41,746 bases of DNA from contig JAKEGK010000173.1 in assembly GCA_022627515.1 (NCBI GenBank), positions 1 to 41,746 on the forward strand. The letters are read 5' to 3'. The position numbers were made by a program, and so were the translations under genes. The notes below the pieces were generated by a model that was not told the DNA's origin, searched no databases, and saw only the letters and a program-made list of their open reading frames with translations. The DNA is from Gammaproteobacteria bacterium. GTDB taxonomy: Bacteria; Pseudomonadota; Gammaproteobacteria; SZUA-152. Shown in pieces: positions 10,734 through 29,892 of the stretch. Each line of letters starts with the position of its first letter. Position 1 is the stretch's first letter.

Positions 10734-10747
10734 TTGACAATGATCAA
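10734..10747 (-). promoter_or_regulatory. FNR/Dnr-like dyad upstream of the Mo-hydroxylase operon
   Basis: TTGAC-AATG-ATCAA matches TTGAT-N4-ATCAA at 9 of 10 specified positions and sits 67 bases before the start of the 2Fe-2S subunit gene. A -10 box at the ideal distance is weak (TGAATT on the - strand). Oxygen- or nitric-oxide-responsive control is inferred. Confidence 0.45.
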
Positions 10748-12155: not shown

Positions 12156-12169
12156 TTGATGATGATCAT
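12156..12169 (-). promoter_or_regulatory. Possible FNR-like dyad upstream of dodecin
   Basis: TTGAT-GATG-ATCAT matches the FNR consensus at 9 of 10 positions. It is 182 bases before the dodecin start, with only a modest -10 candidate (AATCAT) at the right distance, so the assignment is weak. Confidence 0.3.
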
Positions 12170-16315: not shown

Positions 16316-18049
16316 TCAGGCAACATTTTTTGCCGTGCCCGGGGTAACTCCGGAATCATGACGATGTTCAAATTCAGCAGGTATTCGCACAACAAATGCC
16401 GTACCTTCGCCTTGCGTACTGTTGACAGCTATAGTGCCGCCCATCATGTCACACAAGCGTTTAGTGATAGCCAGTCCCAGTCCCGCGCCTTCATTGCCGG
16501 CGACCACGGTGGACCTTGATTGCGAAAAAGGTTTGAATAAACGATCAACGTCCTGGCCGGGAATTCCGATACCCGTATCTGCAACCGTGAACTCTATCCA
16601 TTCCGAATTCTGGTTGCCATCAATATCATGCGCAATATTAAGAGTAACTACACCATTACAGGTGAATTTTCCCGCATTGCACAATAGATTTATGAGCATT
16701 TGCCTTATGCGCAAGATATCGCCTTGTATTTCTCCGATACCAGTTGTCATCTGCACAATAAACTCATTATTGTTTTTCCAGATGCCGGGCTCAACAATAG
16801 CGGTAAGGTCATCAATAAATTGCGGGACATTTATTGTTGTTATGTGCAATTCCAGTTTGTCCGCCTCAATTTTTGACAAGTCCAGGATATCGCTTACCAA
16901 TGTCAGCAGATATTTGCCGGATTGCCTGATTTTTTCCAGGTCATAGCATAGTTCATTTTGATCCACCTGTTCGATATTCTGCGCGTCCTCCAAAAGGATT
17001 TCGCTGTAGCCAATAATGGCGTTTAAGGGTGTGCGAAGTTCATGGCTCATGGTTGCCAGAAATGCGCTTTTCGCCCGGTTGGCCTGTTGCGCATCATCCC
17101 TTGCGTTGGCAAGTTCCAGGGTCCGTTGCCTTATCAGCTCTTCCAGGTTTTCTTTATGCACTTTCAGCAACGCCTCAGCATGACGGAAATCCGTGATGTC
17201 CTGACAAACACCGACCAACCTCACCGGATCACCATTGTCGTTATAAAACACGCGGCCGCGCTCGCTGATGATCCGTTCGTCGCCATTTGGCAGCAGGGTC
17301 CGGTGTTCGGTCTGATATGGCTCTTTGTTATTAATGGCTTTTGATATTGCCTGATTCACGGCACGCCGGTCATCGGGATGAATTCTATCGATAAACTGTT
17401 CGTAAGTTGTATTTGCGGTTTTCTTGTCGATACCAAATATTTGATAGGTTTCATCAGACCATTTCAGTGCGTTCGTTTTTATATCCCATTCCCAGTTACC
17501 CATATGGCCGATGTGTTGCGCTTCCTTGAGTAAAGCCTGGCTTTTACGCAACGCGTTTTCAGTTTCTTTCAGGTGGGATACATCCCGAATACTCTGCACA
17601 ATACCAATGGGTTCATTGTTTTCCGCACGAACGACTTTAATCGTCACTTCAATGGGTTTTCCCAAAGCATTATGCGGGTCATCGGCCTCCTTGGTAAAAA
17701 AGGCGTCGCGGCGTTCCAGGCGCGCCAAACAACCCGGGCAGGGCTGATCTTCACCTTTAAGATGGATCAGTTTTCTGACATCCGTGCCTACACAATCTTC
17801 GGCGGGTTTGCCAATTTGCCGGTAAAAAGCCTTGTTGGCCCTGACCAGATTGTCGTCCAGGTTGACCAGATACATGGGATAATCCAGCGAATCCATGGCT
17901 TGCGTCCACTCTGCTTCAGCATTGGCGATCAGAAGTTCATTCTTCCGCAAAAGGATATGTTGCCGGTAAATAACCATTCCGGCCGCAAAAAAACCCATGG
18001 TCAAAAAACCGGTAAAAATAACAAATAAGGTCAGCGGAACCTGAAGCAT
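16316..18049 (-). CDS. PAS-domain sensor histidine kinase
   Basis: A 577-residue kinase. Order: one N-terminal transmembrane segment (residues ~5-28), PAS1 (~45-160, containing a CPGC pair that could ligate metal or sense redox state), PAS2 (~175-290, with IHPDDR and a PAC segment), a short coiled coil, HisKA with the phospho-acceptor in SHELRTPLNAIIGY (~335), then HATPase_c with N-box LLCNAGKF, G1 DTGIGIPG and G2 GAGLGLAI. No receiver domain is attached and no response-regulator gene is nearby, so its partner is elsewhere. Ligand is unknown. Confidence 0.92.
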   Translation of the reverse strand: MLQVPLTLFVIFTGFLTMGFFAAGMVIYRQHILLRKNELLIANAEAEWTQAMDSLDYPMYLVNLDDNLVRANKAFYRQIGKPAEDCVGTDVRKLIHLKGEDQPCPGCLARLERRDAFFTKEADDPHNALGKPIEVTIKVVRAENNEPIGIVQSIRDVSHLKETENALRKSQALLKEAQHIGHMGNWEWDIKTNALKWSDETYQIFGIDKKTANTTYEQFIDRIHPDDRRAVNQAISKAINNKEPYQTEHRTLLPNGDERIISERGRVFYNDNGDPVRLVGVCQDITDFRHAEALLKVHKENLEELIRQRTLELANARDDAQQANRAKSAFLATMSHELRTPLNAIIGYSEILLEDAQNIEQVDQNELCYDLEKIRQSGKYLLTLVSDILDLSKIEADKLELHITTINVPQFIDDLTAIVEPGIWKNNNEFIVQMTTGIGEIQGDILRIRQMLINLLCNAGKFTCNGVVTLNIAHDIDGNQNSEWIEFTVADTGIGIPGQDVDRLFKPFSQSRSTVVAGNEGAGLGLAITKRLCDMMGGTIAVNSTQGEGTAFVVRIPAEFEHRHDSGVTPGTAKNVA

Positions 18050-18459
18050 ATTCAGTAGAAGATGTTACCTAAATTCGTATCGGCTGCGGCCAAATTAGTA
18101 GCAAGAAACCTTGGAAATTCGTGTGTTTAAGCGGCGGGATTTCCAACCAATAAGATTCCACTTTATTCTCATCGTCCGTCGGATATAAACCTTTATAAAT
18201 TTGGAGATATTAGGTCAGCCGGACATCGGGAAAGGACTGAATATAAGAACACTCAGAAAACGAAAAAATCAATCTTTTACCATCAGTAAAATTTATTGCC
18301 TTTTCCTATCAATAAGTTAAGTATCCAAGGGTTATCACGATCAAGGATGGATTTCCTGTTGCCGCAAACTCAGCGTTCACGAGCCGGAATCCGTTAAAAC
18401 GGGATTCTCCAAGTGATCCAGCGGTAATTTTTGATTGAATGCGGTTGAATGGACAACAT
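18050..18459. other. Intergenic region between usp and the kinase gene
   Basis: About 410 bases without a credible gene. The only structure noted is an imperfect hairpin, GAATCCGTT with AACGGGATTC, near 18391-18411. It is about 50 bases past the usp stop and has no T-tract. It may be the 3' boundary of the usp message. Confidence 0.35.
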
Positions 18460-19296
18460 CTAGCGGACAACCATTACCGTCCGGTCGCTCATCCCAACCA
18501 CGCGTTCAGAGATCGAGCCCATCAACAAACTAGTTATACCGGTCCGGCCATGCGAACCAACAACAATCAAATCGGCATCATGCGCTTTTGCCGCATCAAT
18601 GATTTCCAGATACGCAGTGCCGTAACATATTACTGCCTCCACACCAACGCCTTCGGAGCTGGCTATATTGTTAATCCAGGCAACGTTTTCTTTTGCCATG
18701 TCAGCGTCAATTCCACCATGCACAACACTGCATGCAATAATGGAACCCTTGGTGCGCCTGGCAAGACTGATTGCCTGCATTGCCGCTTTTTCACTGTATC
18801 CGGAACCGTCGGTGGCAACCAGTAAACGCTTCGCTGTCAAATTTCCCGGGCGCGGCACCACAAATACATTGCACGGCGCATGACCGATAACCAGGTGTGT
18901 AACACTGCCCATCAACAGTTTCATTAATCCCCGGCGTCCCCGCCGGCCGATAACAATCGCATCCGCTTTCTGTTTTTGCGCTTCGCTGACGATATGCTCG
19001 TATGGCTCTTCGCCTTCATGAACAATCGATTCGCATTTGACACCCGCGGCTTGCGCACGTGATTTGACTGCTTCACACGTCTGACGGGCAGCCTTGTCTA
19101 TCTCTGAAACAACTTCCGCTGCGTACTGAAGCTGGCCAAGCGTCACCTGGGCGGTGCACACCACGCAGAGCTTGCTGCCGTATTGCTGTGACCACCGGAT
19201 CGCTTCACGCACCGCGCCTTCGCTATATTCCGATCCATCGGAAGCGACAACAAGTGTTTGCATTTTTGCGATGGGACACTTTTCCACTGCTGCCAC
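18460..19296 (-). CDS. Tandem universal stress protein (UspE-like two-domain)
   Basis: A 278-residue protein with two Usp domains, residues ~12-143 and ~150-278. Each ends with an ATP-binding G-2x-G-9x-G(S/T) motif: GRRGRRGLMKLLMGSV in the first and GSHGRTGITSLLMGSIS in the second, so both sites look able to bind nucleotide. The GTG start at 19296 is supported by AGGAGG eight bases upstream. Two-domain Usps commonly respond to oxygen limitation or energy stress. Here an FNR-like dyad sits at the classic class II distance from a good -10 box, which suggests anaerobic induction. Confidence 0.93.
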   Translation of the reverse strand: MAAVEKCPIAKMQTLVVASDGSEYSEGAVREAIRWSQQYGSKLCVVCTAQVTLGQLQYAAEVVSEIDKAARQTCEAVKSRAQAAGVKCESIVHEGEEPYEHIVSEAQKQKADAIVIGRRGRRGLMKLLMGSVTHLVIGHAPCNVFVVPRPGNLTAKRLLVATDGSGYSEKAAMQAISLARRTKGSIIACSVVHGGIDADMAKENVAWINNIASSEGVGVEAVICYGTAYLEIIDAAKAHDADLIVVGSHGRTGITSLLMGSISERVVGMSDRTVMVVR

Positions 19297-19409
19297 GGCG
19301 ACATCCTCCTGTTCATTTACGCGTTATACGGGTGGATCTTTATAAATTTACTGCCGCCGATATGCGAATATAAAACAGGCAAGGCGGTTATTTCCTGAAT
19401 TTAGCAAAT

Positions 19410-19458
19410 TAGAAAAATTTTAGCTTTTATTCAGAATATATATCTTGATTCAGATCAT
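19410..19458 (-). promoter_or_regulatory. FNR/Dnr-type class II promoter of usp
   Basis: The dyad TTGAT-TCAG-ATCAT (19445-19458) matches the FNR consensus at 9 of 10 positions. On the - strand TAAAAT (19417-19422) is a 5-of-6 -10 box, placing the predicted start at 19410 and the dyad centre at -41.5, the standard activating position. The usp GTG follows about 115 bases later. Confidence 0.6.
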
Positions 19459-19495
19459 CCTATACTCTGGCGCAATCCGCAGCTCAACAAAATTC

Positions 19496-20860
19496 TTAAA
19501 TGTAGTTCAGCACGTCCCGAATTTGTTTCATGCCAATGACTTCGATGCCGTCAATTGGGTGCTTTGGTTTGTTGGCCAGGGGAACAATGGCTTTACGAAA
19601 ACCGTGTTTGGCGGCTTCGGCGATGCGTTCCTGGCCGCTGGGTACGGGACGAATCTCGCCGGATAGTCCGACTTCGCCAAAGACCACGAGGTCTTGCGGC
19701 AGTGGTTTGTTTTTGAAGCTGGAGACGATGGAAAGAATCAGCGCCAGGTCGGCGCTGGTTTCGGCCACTTTTACACCGCCGACGGCGTTGACAAATACAT
19801 CCTGATCGCCCAGGTGAATGCCGCCGTGACGGTGCAACACAGCCAGTAACATGGCCAACCGGTTGCCCTCCAGACCCACCGCCAGGCGGCGCGGATTATT
19901 CAGCGAACTCTGGTCGACCAGCGCCTGCACTTCGATGAGTAATGGCCGGGTGCCTTCCCACAACACCAGCACCACGCTGCCCGGCACCGGTTCTTCGCCA
20001 CGGCTTAAAAAAATCGCAGAGGGATTTTTGACTTCCTTGAGCCCTTTGTCGGTCATGGCGAACACGCCTAATTCATTTACCGGACCAAAACGGTTTTTGG
20101 TGCTGCGCAGAGTGCGGAAACGGCTGTCATCAGAACCTTCCAGCATTACGGAACAGTCGATCATATGTTCCAGGACTTTGGGTCCGGCCAATGTTCCATC
20201 CTTGGTGACATGACCGATAAGGATCAGGATGGTTCCGGTTTGTTTGGCAAAACGAGTCAGGTAAGCGGCACATTCGCGCACCTGCGCCACGCCTCCCGGC
20301 GCGGATTGCACATCATTGAGATACATCACCTGAATGGAATCAATCAGCAATATTTTGGGTTTGAGTTCAGTGGTTGCCGCGCTGATGGCCATAACATCGG
20401 TTTCAGCCAGCATTTTCAAATCGGTGGCAGTCAGGCCCAAACGATGAGCACGCAAGGCAATCTGCTGCAGGGATTCCTCTCCGGTGACATACAAGGCGCT
20501 CATGTGCCTGGAAAGATGACACAATACCTGTAAGAGCAGGGTGCTCTTACCGGCGCCGGGATGACCGCCAACCAATATGGTTGAGCCTTCCACAAAACCG
20601 CCGCCTAATACGCGGTCAAGTTCGGCCGTCCCCGATACAATTCGCGGTGATTGTTCCAGTGCGACTTCATTGAGTGAGTGTATTCTGGAACGCGCGCCGG
20701 CGTATCCATCGAAACGTGGTTGCAATGTGGTTTGCTTTTTGGTGGCAACGACAATTTCACTGAGCGTGTTCCAGGCTCCGCAATTGTCGCATTGCCCTTG
20801 CCATTTGCCATAGTCGGCGCCGCAGTCGTTGCATACATAGGCGGTTTTGCGTTTGGCCAC
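19496..20860 (-). CDS. radA: DNA repair protein RadA
   Basis: A 454-residue RadA (Sms), a DnaB-like/RecA-like ATPase that promotes branch migration during recombination. The N-terminal zinc finger has C-N-D-C then C-D-N-C spacing (YVCNDCGADYGKWQGQ...). The Walker A motif is GGHPGAGKST, followed by Walker B ILLIDSIQ, the RadA-specific KNRFG motif and a Lon-like C-terminal domain ending DVLNYI. The start is GTG at 20860 with GGGAGA upstream. It lies downstream of alr; two small hairpins separate them. Confidence 0.97.
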   Translation of the reverse strand: MAKRKTAYVCNDCGADYGKWQGQCDNCGAWNTLSEIVVATKKQTTLQPRFDGYAGARSRIHSLNEVALEQSPRIVSGTAELDRVLGGGFVEGSTILVGGHPGAGKSTLLLQVLCHLSRHMSALYVTGEESLQQIALRAHRLGLTATDLKMLAETDVMAISAATTELKPKILLIDSIQVMYLNDVQSAPGGVAQVRECAAYLTRFAKQTGTILILIGHVTKDGTLAGPKVLEHMIDCSVMLEGSDDSRFRTLRSTKNRFGPVNELGVFAMTDKGLKEVKNPSAIFLSRGEEPVPGSVVLVLWEGTRPLLIEVQALVDQSSLNNPRRLAVGLEGNRLAMLLAVLHRHGGIHLGDQDVFVNAVGGVKVAETSADLALILSIVSSFKNKPLPQDLVVFGEVGLSGEIRPVPSGQERIAEAAKHGFRKAIVPLANKPKHPIDGIEVIGMKQIRDVLNYI

Positions 20861-20910
20861 GATGATTTAAATCTCCCTTAGTGAAATTTTTCAGGATAAA
20901 GTTAAGGCGA

Positions 20911-20938
20911 TGACTTTTTAAGTCACCCTCTTTGAGGG
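20911..20938 (-). other. Two adjacent small hairpins between alr and radA
   Basis: TGACTT-ttt-AAGTCA (20911-20925) is directly followed by CCCTC-ttt-GAGGG (20926-20938). They may attenuate or terminate alr transcripts, but no T-tract follows on the - strand. Confidence 0.35.
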
Positions 20939-20968
20939 AGAAATACTCTTATTGGTTCTTTTCGACGG

Positions 20969-22060
20969 TTAATTCTTTTCAACAAACTTCACACGCTGGG
21001 TAACATGGCACAACAATTCATAGCCAATTGTGTCCGCGCAGCGCGCCACTTCCTCGACAGGCAGTCCATCACCCCACACTATCACCGGATCACCGGCTTT
21101 GGCATCGGGCTGTTCGCGCAGATCCACGCAAATCATGTCCATGGAAACGCGGCCAATGAGCCTGGCGCGTTTGCCATTTACCAGCACCGGTGTGCCGCTT
21201 TTGGCGTGACGCGGATAGCCATCACCGTAACCGATGGCTACGACGCCCACCAGCATATCTTCAGGGCACACCCATTCGCCACCGTAGCCAATAGCGGAAT
21301 TTTTTTTCTGATAATTTATCGCAATCAGCGCGCTGGATAGTGTCATAACCGGCTGCAAATCGTGATCCAACCCGGCGCCGGAATTAAAAGGCGTCACACC
21401 GTACAGCATGATGCCGGGACGGACATAATCGGCATGCGTTTCCGGCCAACCCAGGATGCCGCCTGAATTGGCAATGGAGCGCGGCGCCTGCAATCCACGC
21501 GTTACTTTATCGAATAATTGCAGTTGCATTTTGGTGACAATGTCTTTTGGATCGTCCGCATTGGCAAGATGGGTCATGACATTCATTTCCTTTACCAGCG
21601 GGATGGCCTGCAAACGTTGCCAGACGATGGGCACGATGTCGGGCGGAAAACCCAGCCGGTGCATGCCAGTATCAATTTTCAGCCACACTGACATGCGCGA
21701 TGCTGCGCTGGACGCCGTACGGGCGTAGTCTTCCAGCATTTCAAGTTGGGATATATGATGAATTACGATTTCGGCATTTTGCAGGCCGGCCTTGCTGAAC
21801 TCGGACGCTTCGAACACGCCTTCCAGTAATACGATAGGTTTGCGGATACCGTTGCTGCGCAATTCCAGCGCTTCATCGAGACTGGCGACGCCGAACTTGT
21901 CGGCTTCTTCGAGCGCTTTCGCGGCGCGCACAATGCCATGACCATAACCATCCGCCTTGATGACGGCAATTGTTTTTGATTTGGGGGCCAGCTGTTTCAC
22001 GCGGCCCAGATTGTGGCGCAAGGCTTTAAGGTTGACCGTCGCCTGGGTTGCGCGGCTCAT
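20969..22060 (-). CDS. alr: Alanine racemase
   Basis: A 363-residue PLP enzyme interconverting L- and D-alanine for peptidoglycan. The PLP lysine is Lys35 in AVIKADGYGHG. The second catalytic base Tyr is in SAIGYGGEW, and RVSMDMICVDLR marks the C-terminal beta domain. Its ATG overlaps the dnaB TGA (ATGA), so the two are translationally coupled. The dnaB-alr order is a common gammaproteobacterial arrangement. Confidence 0.97.
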   Translation of the reverse strand: MSRATQATVNLKALRHNLGRVKQLAPKSKTIAVIKADGYGHGIVRAAKALEEADKFGVASLDEALELRSNGIRKPIVLLEGVFEASEFSKAGLQNAEIVIHHISQLEMLEDYARTASSAASRMSVWLKIDTGMHRLGFPPDIVPIVWQRLQAIPLVKEMNVMTHLANADDPKDIVTKMQLQLFDKVTRGLQAPRSIANSGGILGWPETHADYVRPGIMLYGVTPFNSGAGLDHDLQPVMTLSSALIAINYQKKNSAIGYGGEWVCPEDMLVGVVAIGYGDGYPRHAKSGTPVLVNGKRARLIGRVSMDMICVDLREQPDAKAGDPVIVWGDGLPVEEVARCADTIGYELLCHVTQRVKFVEKN

Positions 22061-27256: not shown

Positions 27257-29647
27257 CTACCGGATCCGTTTTTTTCTCCGAAGTTGCCGCTTCGATGTTT
27301 TTGGGGCTGTCTTTTTACTCTTGCGCTGCCCGGCGCCTGCTTTGGTCTTTCTGGAAGGCCGGGATTTTTCCTGCGCGTGTGGTTTTTCCGGCGCGGTTTT
27401 TCCGGGCTTGCGGGCTTCGTGCTTTGATTTGCCGCGTTGCTTTGCGCCTCGATGTTTCTTGCCGCCCTGTTCGTCGTATTTATTGGCAAGATCAAAATCA
27501 ATGCGTTTTTCGTCTAGATCCACCCTGACGACCCGGACATTGACCTTATCCGCCAGGCTATACACCTGGCGGGTGCGCTCGCCAACCAGGCAGTGCTTGA
27601 CCGGATCAAAATGATAATAATCATTACTGAGTGATGTGACATGAATCAGGCCTTCGACGTAGATGCCCTGCAGCTCCACGAACAGGCCAAAACTGGTGAC
27701 GCCGGAAATAATACCATCGAAGCACTCGCCGACTTTATCCATCATGTATTCGCATTTCAGCCAGGCTTCCACGTCGCGGGTGGCTTCGTCGGCGCGGCGT
27801 TCGGTCATGGAGCATTGCTCTCCCAGGCGCGCCATATCCTCCACGCTGTAATCAAAGTCATCCGCGGTCCCGCCCTTCAGCAGATGCGCAATAGCGCGGT
27901 GCACGAGCAAGTCGGGGTAGCGGCGAATGGGCGAGGTAAAATGGGCATACTGGGTTAACGCCAGTCCAAAATGGCCGATATTGTCCGGGCTATACACCGC
28001 CTGTTTCATGCTGCGCAACAGTACGGTTTGTATCAGATGCGATTCCGGGCGGTCGCCAACCTGACTCAGTACATGGGCGTAATGCGCGGCTTCAGGACGA
28101 GCCCCGCCTTCAAGTTTCAGTCCGAACGACTTGAGGAATTCCCGCAAATCGGCCAGCTTGTCAGCGTCCGGCAGTTCGTGCACGCGATACAGGGTTGGCA
28201 TGGTGTGTTTGTCGAGGTATCTGGCCGCGCAGATGTTGGCGGTGATCATGCATTCCTCGATGAGCTTGTGCGCGACATTGCGGCTCAGCGGCACAATGCT
28301 CTGAATTTTTTTCTGCGGTCCGAACTTGATCACGGTTTCCGTGGTTTCAAATTCTATCGTGCCGCGTTTGATGCGCTGCTTTGCAAACACGTGGTAAAGC
28401 TGATGCAGATTTTCCAAATGCGGCAACAACTCCGCAAACCGTTGACACAGTACCTCGTCGCCCTCGAGCATGGCCGCGACGTCATCGTAAATCATGCGCG
28501 CATGGGATTTCATCACCGCGCTATAGAAACGATAGGACTTTATTGCGCCTGACGCGCTGACATTCATGTCGCAAACCATGCACAGGCGTTCGACGCCCGG
28601 ATTTATGGAACACAGTCCGTTGGACAGCAGTTCCGGCAACATCGGAATGACACGGCCGGGAAAATACACGGAATTACCCCGCTCCTGCGCCGACTGATCC
28701 AGCGCGCTAGCCGGGCCGACGTAATGGGATACATCCGCAATGGCAACGATCAAACGCCAGTCTTTGCCGTTGCGTTCACAATACACCGCGTCGTCAAAGT
28801 CCCTGGCATCGGGTCCGTCAATGGTTACCAGCGGCAGGCGCCGGATATCTTCCCGTCCTTCGGTATCTGCACGGCTGACTTCTTCGGAATAGGACTGGAT
28901 TTCCTCATCAACCTCGGCCGGCCATCGATGCGGCAGTTCATGGGCGCGGATAGCAACATCAATTTCCATTCCTGGCGCCATGTGCTCACCCAATACTTCG
29001 ATGACACGCCCTAATGGCTGGCGGCGCTTGGTGGGCTGTTCGATCAGTTCGACCACAACAATTTGGCCTTCCTGCGCCTGGCCCTGATATTCCGCAGGTA
29101 CGGCGATGTCGTGCGTAATGCGTTTGTTGTCCGGAATGATGAAGCCGATGCCGGACTCGCGGAAAAACCGCCCCACCACACTATGCGTATTGCGTTGCAG
29201 AATTTCCACAATAGCGCCTTCACGGCGGCCGCGCCGGTCGATGCCCGACACCCTGGCCACCACCCGGTCGCCATGAATCACGGCGCGCATTTGCCGGGCG
29301 GACAGGAATAAATCATCGCTGCTGTCATCGGGAACCAGAAAACCATAACCATCGGGATGTGCGGAGACATAACCGCGCACCAGGTCCATCTTTTCCACCA
29401 GCCCATAACCCTCGCGGCGGTTACGGATCACCTGGCCGTCGCGCTCCATGGCCCTGAGCCGCCGCTGCAGCGCGTCGATATCCTGCTCCTCGCGAAAATC
29501 AAGAATGCCGGCAAGTTCCTGCCAGGTTAGCGGCTCACCCTTCTCCGCCAGGATCTCCATAATGTATTCCCGGCTTGCAATGGGCCTTACATATTTTCGC
29601 GCCTCGCGATCGGCAAATTCATCTGCTTTGTGGTGGGGTTTATCCAT
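27257..29647 (-). CDS. rnr: Ribonuclease R
   Basis: An exoribonuclease degrading structured RNA 3' to 5'. Start 29647 (MDKPHHKADEFADREARKY, 796 residues) agrees with family N-termini; an in-frame ATG at 29689 would add 14 residues, and neither has a strong ribosome site. Domains in order: helix-turn-helix (~20-85), cold-shock domains, the RNB catalytic domain with DGPDARDFDDAVY (Asp cluster), an S1 domain (GVTSFGLFVELQGIYVEGL) and a lysine/arginine-rich tail. The basic tail is typical of RNase R and aids duplex unwinding. Confidence 0.97.
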   Translation of the reverse strand: MDKPHHKADEFADREARKYVRPIASREYIMEILAEKGEPLTWQELAGILDFREEQDIDALQRRLRAMERDGQVIRNRREGYGLVEKMDLVRGYVSAHPDGYGFLVPDDSSDDLFLSARQMRAVIHGDRVVARVSGIDRRGRREGAIVEILQRNTHSVVGRFFRESGIGFIIPDNKRITHDIAVPAEYQGQAQEGQIVVVELIEQPTKRRQPLGRVIEVLGEHMAPGMEIDVAIRAHELPHRWPAEVDEEIQSYSEEVSRADTEGREDIRRLPLVTIDGPDARDFDDAVYCERNGKDWRLIVAIADVSHYVGPASALDQSAQERGNSVYFPGRVIPMLPELLSNGLCSINPGVERLCMVCDMNVSASGAIKSYRFYSAVMKSHARMIYDDVAAMLEGDEVLCQRFAELLPHLENLHQLYHVFAKQRIKRGTIEFETTETVIKFGPQKKIQSIVPLSRNVAHKLIEECMITANICAARYLDKHTMPTLYRVHELPDADKLADLREFLKSFGLKLEGGARPEAAHYAHVLSQVGDRPESHLIQTVLLRSMKQAVYSPDNIGHFGLALTQYAHFTSPIRRYPDLLVHRAIAHLLKGGTADDFDYSVEDMARLGEQCSMTERRADEATRDVEAWLKCEYMMDKVGECFDGIISGVTSFGLFVELQGIYVEGLIHVTSLSNDYYHFDPVKHCLVGERTRQVYSLADKVNVRVVRVDLDEKRIDFDLANKYDEQGGKKHRGAKQRGKSKHEARKPGKTAPEKPHAQEKSRPSRKTKAGAGQRKSKKTAPKTSKRQLRRKKRIR

Positions 29648-29866
29648 AATTTTTATTAGTGGCACAGGTGCTGTAAACTCGATTGACATGGCGTATATGG
29701 CAATGTCGTTAATAGTCTGAATAATATTTCACCGTTATATCCATTGACAGGACAGTCCACGGTGGGTACAGTTGCCGCCGATTATACAAATTGCGGTACG
29801 GTAGTGACAGCGGACCAAGGAATCTACACAATTATAGTTGGTTAATAGATAGTTAGCCGTTGTTGC

Positions 29867-29892
29867 TGATCAAATGTTATTGATCAAATGTT
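29867..29892. repeat. Two direct repeats TGATCAAATGTT, 14-base period
   Basis: Identical 12-mers at 29867-29878 and 29881-29892, about 65 bases before tRNA-Leu, each containing the palindrome TGATCA. They could bind a regulator of tRNA or rnr transcription, but no function is known. Confidence 0.5.

Follow-up and report, generated by a model that had tools for sequence, protein, structure and literature searches.

How is transcription initiated at a gene for tandem Usp domains that is preceded, in the gap separating it from radA, by an FNR-type dyad? This arrangement is found in the window analyzed here, a stretch of 41,746 nucleotides from a gammaproteobacterial genome. The original prediction placed the dyad exactly 41.5 bases before a start deduced from a -10 box matching at five of six positions and read the combination as a class II FNR-type promoter. 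The distance proved to be exact, as seen from the following features of the locus.

18460 to 19296, minus strand: usp, 278 amino acids, GTG start, tandem Usp domains (PF00582 in two stretches, 4.2e-51)
19297 to 19410, minus strand: predicted 5' leader, 114 nucleotides with +1 counted
19305 to 19310, minus strand: Shine-Dalgarno-like sequence AGGAGG, 8 bases 5' of the usp GTG
19410, minus strand: predicted transcription start, deduced from TAAAAT, which places the box at -41.5
19417 to 19422, minus strand: -10-like hexamer TAAAAT, matching TATAAT at five of six positions, at -12 to -7
19445 to 19458, minus strand: FNR-type box, centre 19451.5, 9 of 10 consensus positions (ATGAT and ATCAA around CTGA towards usp; TTGAT and ATCAT around TCAG on the plus strand)
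19496 to 20860, minus strand: radA (TIGR00416, 673.8 bits), upstream neighbour of usp, same direction

The radA-usp intergenic region

The box is located 37 bases from the radA stop codon in an AT-rich gap of 199 bp (37.7% GC). Its plus-strand sequence, TTGATTCAGATCAT, differs from the FNR consensus TTGATNNNNATCAA by a single mismatch, which affects an outer base of the site, and the box reads ATGATCTGAATCAA towards usp. The opposite reading of the box revealed no -10-like hexamer at the -41.5 spacing. On the usp strand, the gap contains six -10-like hexamers with five of six matches, starting at 19440, 19422, 19413, 19372, 19344, and 19328. Thus, the usp start was chosen by its spacing to the box and is not fixed by the -10 hexamer alone. 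Inspection of positions 19250 to 19560 detected neither a terminator-like site nor a sigma-70 -35/-10 pair, the latter being a weak test with 1.1 pairs expected in shuffled sequences; this outcome is weakly consistent with an activator-dependent promoter. Positions 17900 to 21000 gave no Rfam match, and a near-identity search of plasmids returned no match. When the 199-bp gap was shuffled 20,000 times, a box with at most one mismatch was obtained in 2.1% of the cases, and a box combined with a five-of-six -10 hexamer at -41.5 ± 1 in 0.12%.

FNR proteins encoded by the genome

The original prediction, which named FNR, Anr, and Dnr as possible regulators, depended on the presence of a corresponding gene in the organism. 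The genome was found to encode two FNR proteins (C39 and C211), which score 296.8 and 264.5 bits against a curated NF008365 Fnr cut-off of 228 bits and are 68% identical to each other. The C39 protein could be aligned over nearly its full length with an FNR-type regulator of solved structure (E value of 1.1e-73), and the alignment covers the CxxCx5C motif, the fourth cysteine (VCE), and the VET[IV]SR recognition helix. The same four cysteines and E-x2-S-R helix residues are present in the C211 protein. In FNR, the four cysteines hold the cluster, and the E-x2-S-R residues of the helix read TTGAT. Since both proteins have all four cluster cysteines, a regulator of the oxygen-responsive FNR/Anr type is better supported than the NO-responsive Dnr, and this portion of the original prediction is narrowed accordingly. 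The C39 fnr gene has a one-mismatch box of its own, centred 92.5 bases before the ATG.

Box use and spacing across the genome

The use of the box was analyzed in 61 stretches comprising 753,577 bases, window included, with genes called mechanically as long ORFs. At the gap of 4, this 754-kb sample contains 23 intergenic boxes with at most one mismatch, versus 3 to 14 (mean, 8.4) for the same half-sites at the ten other gaps within 0 to 10 and 1 to 15 for 19 permuted half-sites at gap 4. More than half of the intergenic gap-4 sites in the sample appear to be real. A -10 profile around the sampled boxes was dropped as evidence, because loci L074 and L076 had been preselected for usp and fnr.

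Spacing was analyzed genome-wide by combining the core TGAT-N4-ATCA with a TANNNT hexamer placed behind it at any of 17 spacings, which gave 111 matches. Among the 100 matches listed, 14 were at -41.5, 11 at -40.5, and 7 at -42.5, versus a mean of 4.9 at the other 14 spacings (binomial, 3.6e-4). The context was established for 97 matches, which are not fully independent, a few sites being counted twice, for both orientations or for two spacings; the class considered comprised intergenic matches with a gene starting between 30 bases before and 300 bases after the predicted transcription start. In this class, 8 matches were at -40.5, 9 at -41.5 (usp being one of them), and 3 at -42.5. The 14 other spacings gave 13 in total, or about 0.9 per offset, versus 17 at -40.5 and -41.5. 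The comparison of 20 matches at -40.5 to -42.5 with 13 elsewhere has a binomial p value of 4.5e-8 (1.6e-7 without usp), for contexts fetched on purpose at -40.5 and -41.5 and less fully at the other spacings (63 contexts versus 68 matches listed).

The two FNR proteins, the intergenic enrichment, and the peak at -40.5/-41.5 support the class II FNR-type promoter that had been proposed, and the radA-usp gap probably holds such a promoter, of the FNR/Anr type, for usp. Upon a fall in oxygen, a [4Fe-4S] FNR dimer, supplied by one or both paralogues, would bind ATGATCTGAATCAA at -41.5, where it would replace the -35 element and contact RNA polymerase sitting at TAAAAT. Transcription, activated rather than repressed and dependent on oxygen, would begin near 19410 and provide a leader of about 114 nucleotides, followed by translation of the tandem Usp protein, which may contribute to survival at low oxygen.

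The site could instead be a chance near-palindrome in an AT-rich gap, with usp read through from radA or transcribed from another promoter in the gap. The window contains four sites with at most one mismatch versus about 2.3 expected (2.23 + 0.09), and at least four were obtained in 19 of 100 shuffles, indicating that the occurrence of the motif in the window is not by itself significant. Likewise, 432 places in the genome are within one mismatch of the FNR box. The 22 perfect boxes include several inside ORFs, and few of the genes behind them are among the classical FNR targets. Read-through would fit the common direction of radA and usp and the lack of a detected terminator between them, and another promoter in the gap would fit the six candidate -10 hexamers. 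We nevertheless consider this explanation unlikely, since nine sites are at -41.5 before gene starts against a background of about 0.9 per offset, which puts the estimated share of false cases at the usp spacing at about one in ten.

Binding of the box by a different member of the Crp/Fnr family, namely, a CRP/Vfr-like or an NO-sensing Dnr-like protein, appears very improbable. The genome contains seven Crp/Fnr-type helix-turn-helix genes, and the TGA-N6-TCA core is common to CRP and FNR boxes. However, the site is a poor match to the CRP box (about 6 of 10 positions by eye), and a CRP-like R-E-x3-R helix is present in L003 and L007. Among the seven proteins, E-x2-S-R without a preceding R was seen by eye only in L002 and L004, both of which have the cluster cysteines. 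L005, for which no NCBIfam model scored above its cut-off, is a further candidate binder. FNR might also bind the box and act as a repressor, or control a different start within the leader, for which the -10-like hexamers at 19413, 19372, 19344, and 19328 would be available. The exact -41.5 distance matches the spacing peak of the genome itself, and we give this last explanation hardly any credence.

Comparison with other bacteria and additional candidate targets

The probable class II FNR/Anr promoter of usp has counterparts in excerpts of published reports. The uspA gene (SGRAN_3353) of Sphingopyxis granuli TFA has an Fnr box centred at -41.5, in a promoter of the type termed class II (PMC7713065). 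The excerpt shows the same combination as in the present genome, a -41.5 box before a usp gene and two fnr genes, but control in Sphingopyxis was shown by expression data from fnr mutants (PMC7713065), whereas it is predicted from the sequence here. In Pseudomonas aeruginosa, several Usp proteins are Anr dependent, including the tandem proteins UspN, UspL, UspM, and UspO, and anaerobic survival is supported by UspK and UspN (excerpt of a review, PMC8509486); the likeness consists of the control of tandem Usp proteins by an oxygen regulator of the FNR type, as predicted here. For Dinoroseobacter shibae, the excerpt reports that FnrL activates three usp genes and that the boxes of other targets are at -39.5 to -41.5 (PMC5398030). 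That regulator is of the FnrL type, whereas both FNR proteins of the present genome score far below the FnrL model cut-off. Since FNR/Anr control of usp genes is already known in other bacteria, the predicted usp promoter is credible but ordinary.

Tandem Usp proteins had also been described in the original prediction as frequent targets of these regulators. The published Anr-dependent tandem Usp proteins and the Fnr box at -41.5 of uspA, as given in the excerpts, agree with this view, but it did not extend to the same taxonomic family: a one-mismatch box was present only at the window's own usp and at none of the 30 other usp upstream regions, in a set of 31 (28 from relatives and 3 from the own genome, query included) in which L234 is without upstream sequence and a few mechanical ORF calls may be wrong. 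The idea that usp genes in general are enriched in the box was rejected, as the count at gap 4 with two mismatches (10 of 31) was not above those at gaps 1 and 7. No usp orthologue was found in the family (23 other genomes) or in a sample of the class comprising 369 genomes, among them the own genome; in that sample, the best match (41% identity) is in the own genome, with at most 39% in other genomes. Apart from the query, the family search yielded only two fused homologues with weaker matches (41% and 35%), and the gene-order search of relatives involved the identical 24 genomes. A scan of genome contigs gave one distant Usp, with 29% identity. At 19 other radA loci of the family, several of them cut by contig ends, no credible usp match was found beside radA (best E value of 0.70).

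Other FNR-like sites were observed in the window. At 29860 to 29873, TTGTTGCTGATCAA, which has one mismatch, is located upstream of an RNase R-like gene (27257 to 29689, minus strand), and a TATAAT without mismatches follows at the -42.5 spacing; this is a possible second FNR promoter in the window. Further intergenic one-mismatch sites are at 12156 to 12169 and 10734 to 10747, the latter having its centre 28.5 bases 5' of the start of a [2Fe-2S] protein gene, taken as the longest ORF. Elsewhere, two near-identical FNR-like sites are 14.6 kb apart on one contig (L185, 1730 to 1798, and L186, 1732 to 1800; G000 C22:5029-5097 and C22:19631-19699), each with a class II spacing to TANNNT in both directions. 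Locus L074 (3129 to 6620) contains a cluster of genes for cytochrome-c-like proteins and a single-domain usp, with several one-mismatch FNR boxes, two of which have -10 boxes near -41.5. At L178 (1733 to 1773), TTGATCTATATCAG is combined with a perfect TATAAT at the -40.5 spacing, upstream of a ribosome-hibernation/cold-shock fusion gene (PF02482 plus PF00313). Predicted promoters of this kind also precede genes for a PPK2 polyphosphate kinase and a helix-hairpin-helix protein and, at L074 and L179, genes for proteins in which CxxCH motifs resembling haem-binding sites were seen by eye.

In relatives, a box with at most one mismatch was found at none of six HPF-like genes (1 of 7 overall, that of the own genome), in a set from which 3 of 10 loci were dropped for want of an ORF (L243, L245, and L246) and in which L247 probably has the wrong ORF. 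The same result was obtained for PPK2 (none of six relatives; 1 of 7 overall, again the own genome), and in two PPK2 relatives, a box with two mismatches is located about equally far away. The boxes that are not conserved may reflect either a lineage-specific regulon or the chance occurrence of some of the sites.

According to an excerpt of a study of Burkholderia cenocepacia (PMC3759415), universal stress proteins, a CBS protein, DNA polymerase X, and an FNR-type regulator are upregulated under micro-oxia, and the candidate target set described here resembles that response. Our literature search found no paper joining hibernation, Anr, universal stress, and polyphosphate kinase. We propose only tentatively, and with more doubt than confidence, that FNR runs a low-oxygen dormancy set composed of usp, the hibernation/cold-shock fusion, PPK2, and haem proteins and that this set was rewired in comparison to the family, in which the one-mismatch box was missing from the usp, HPF, and PPK2 genes examined. 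As FNR control of usp is known in principle, the gain would mainly be in regulon annotation: if the predicted promoter is correct, an oxygen-controlled usp gene would be added for an unstudied genome, together with a short list of candidate FNR targets, dormancy genes among them.
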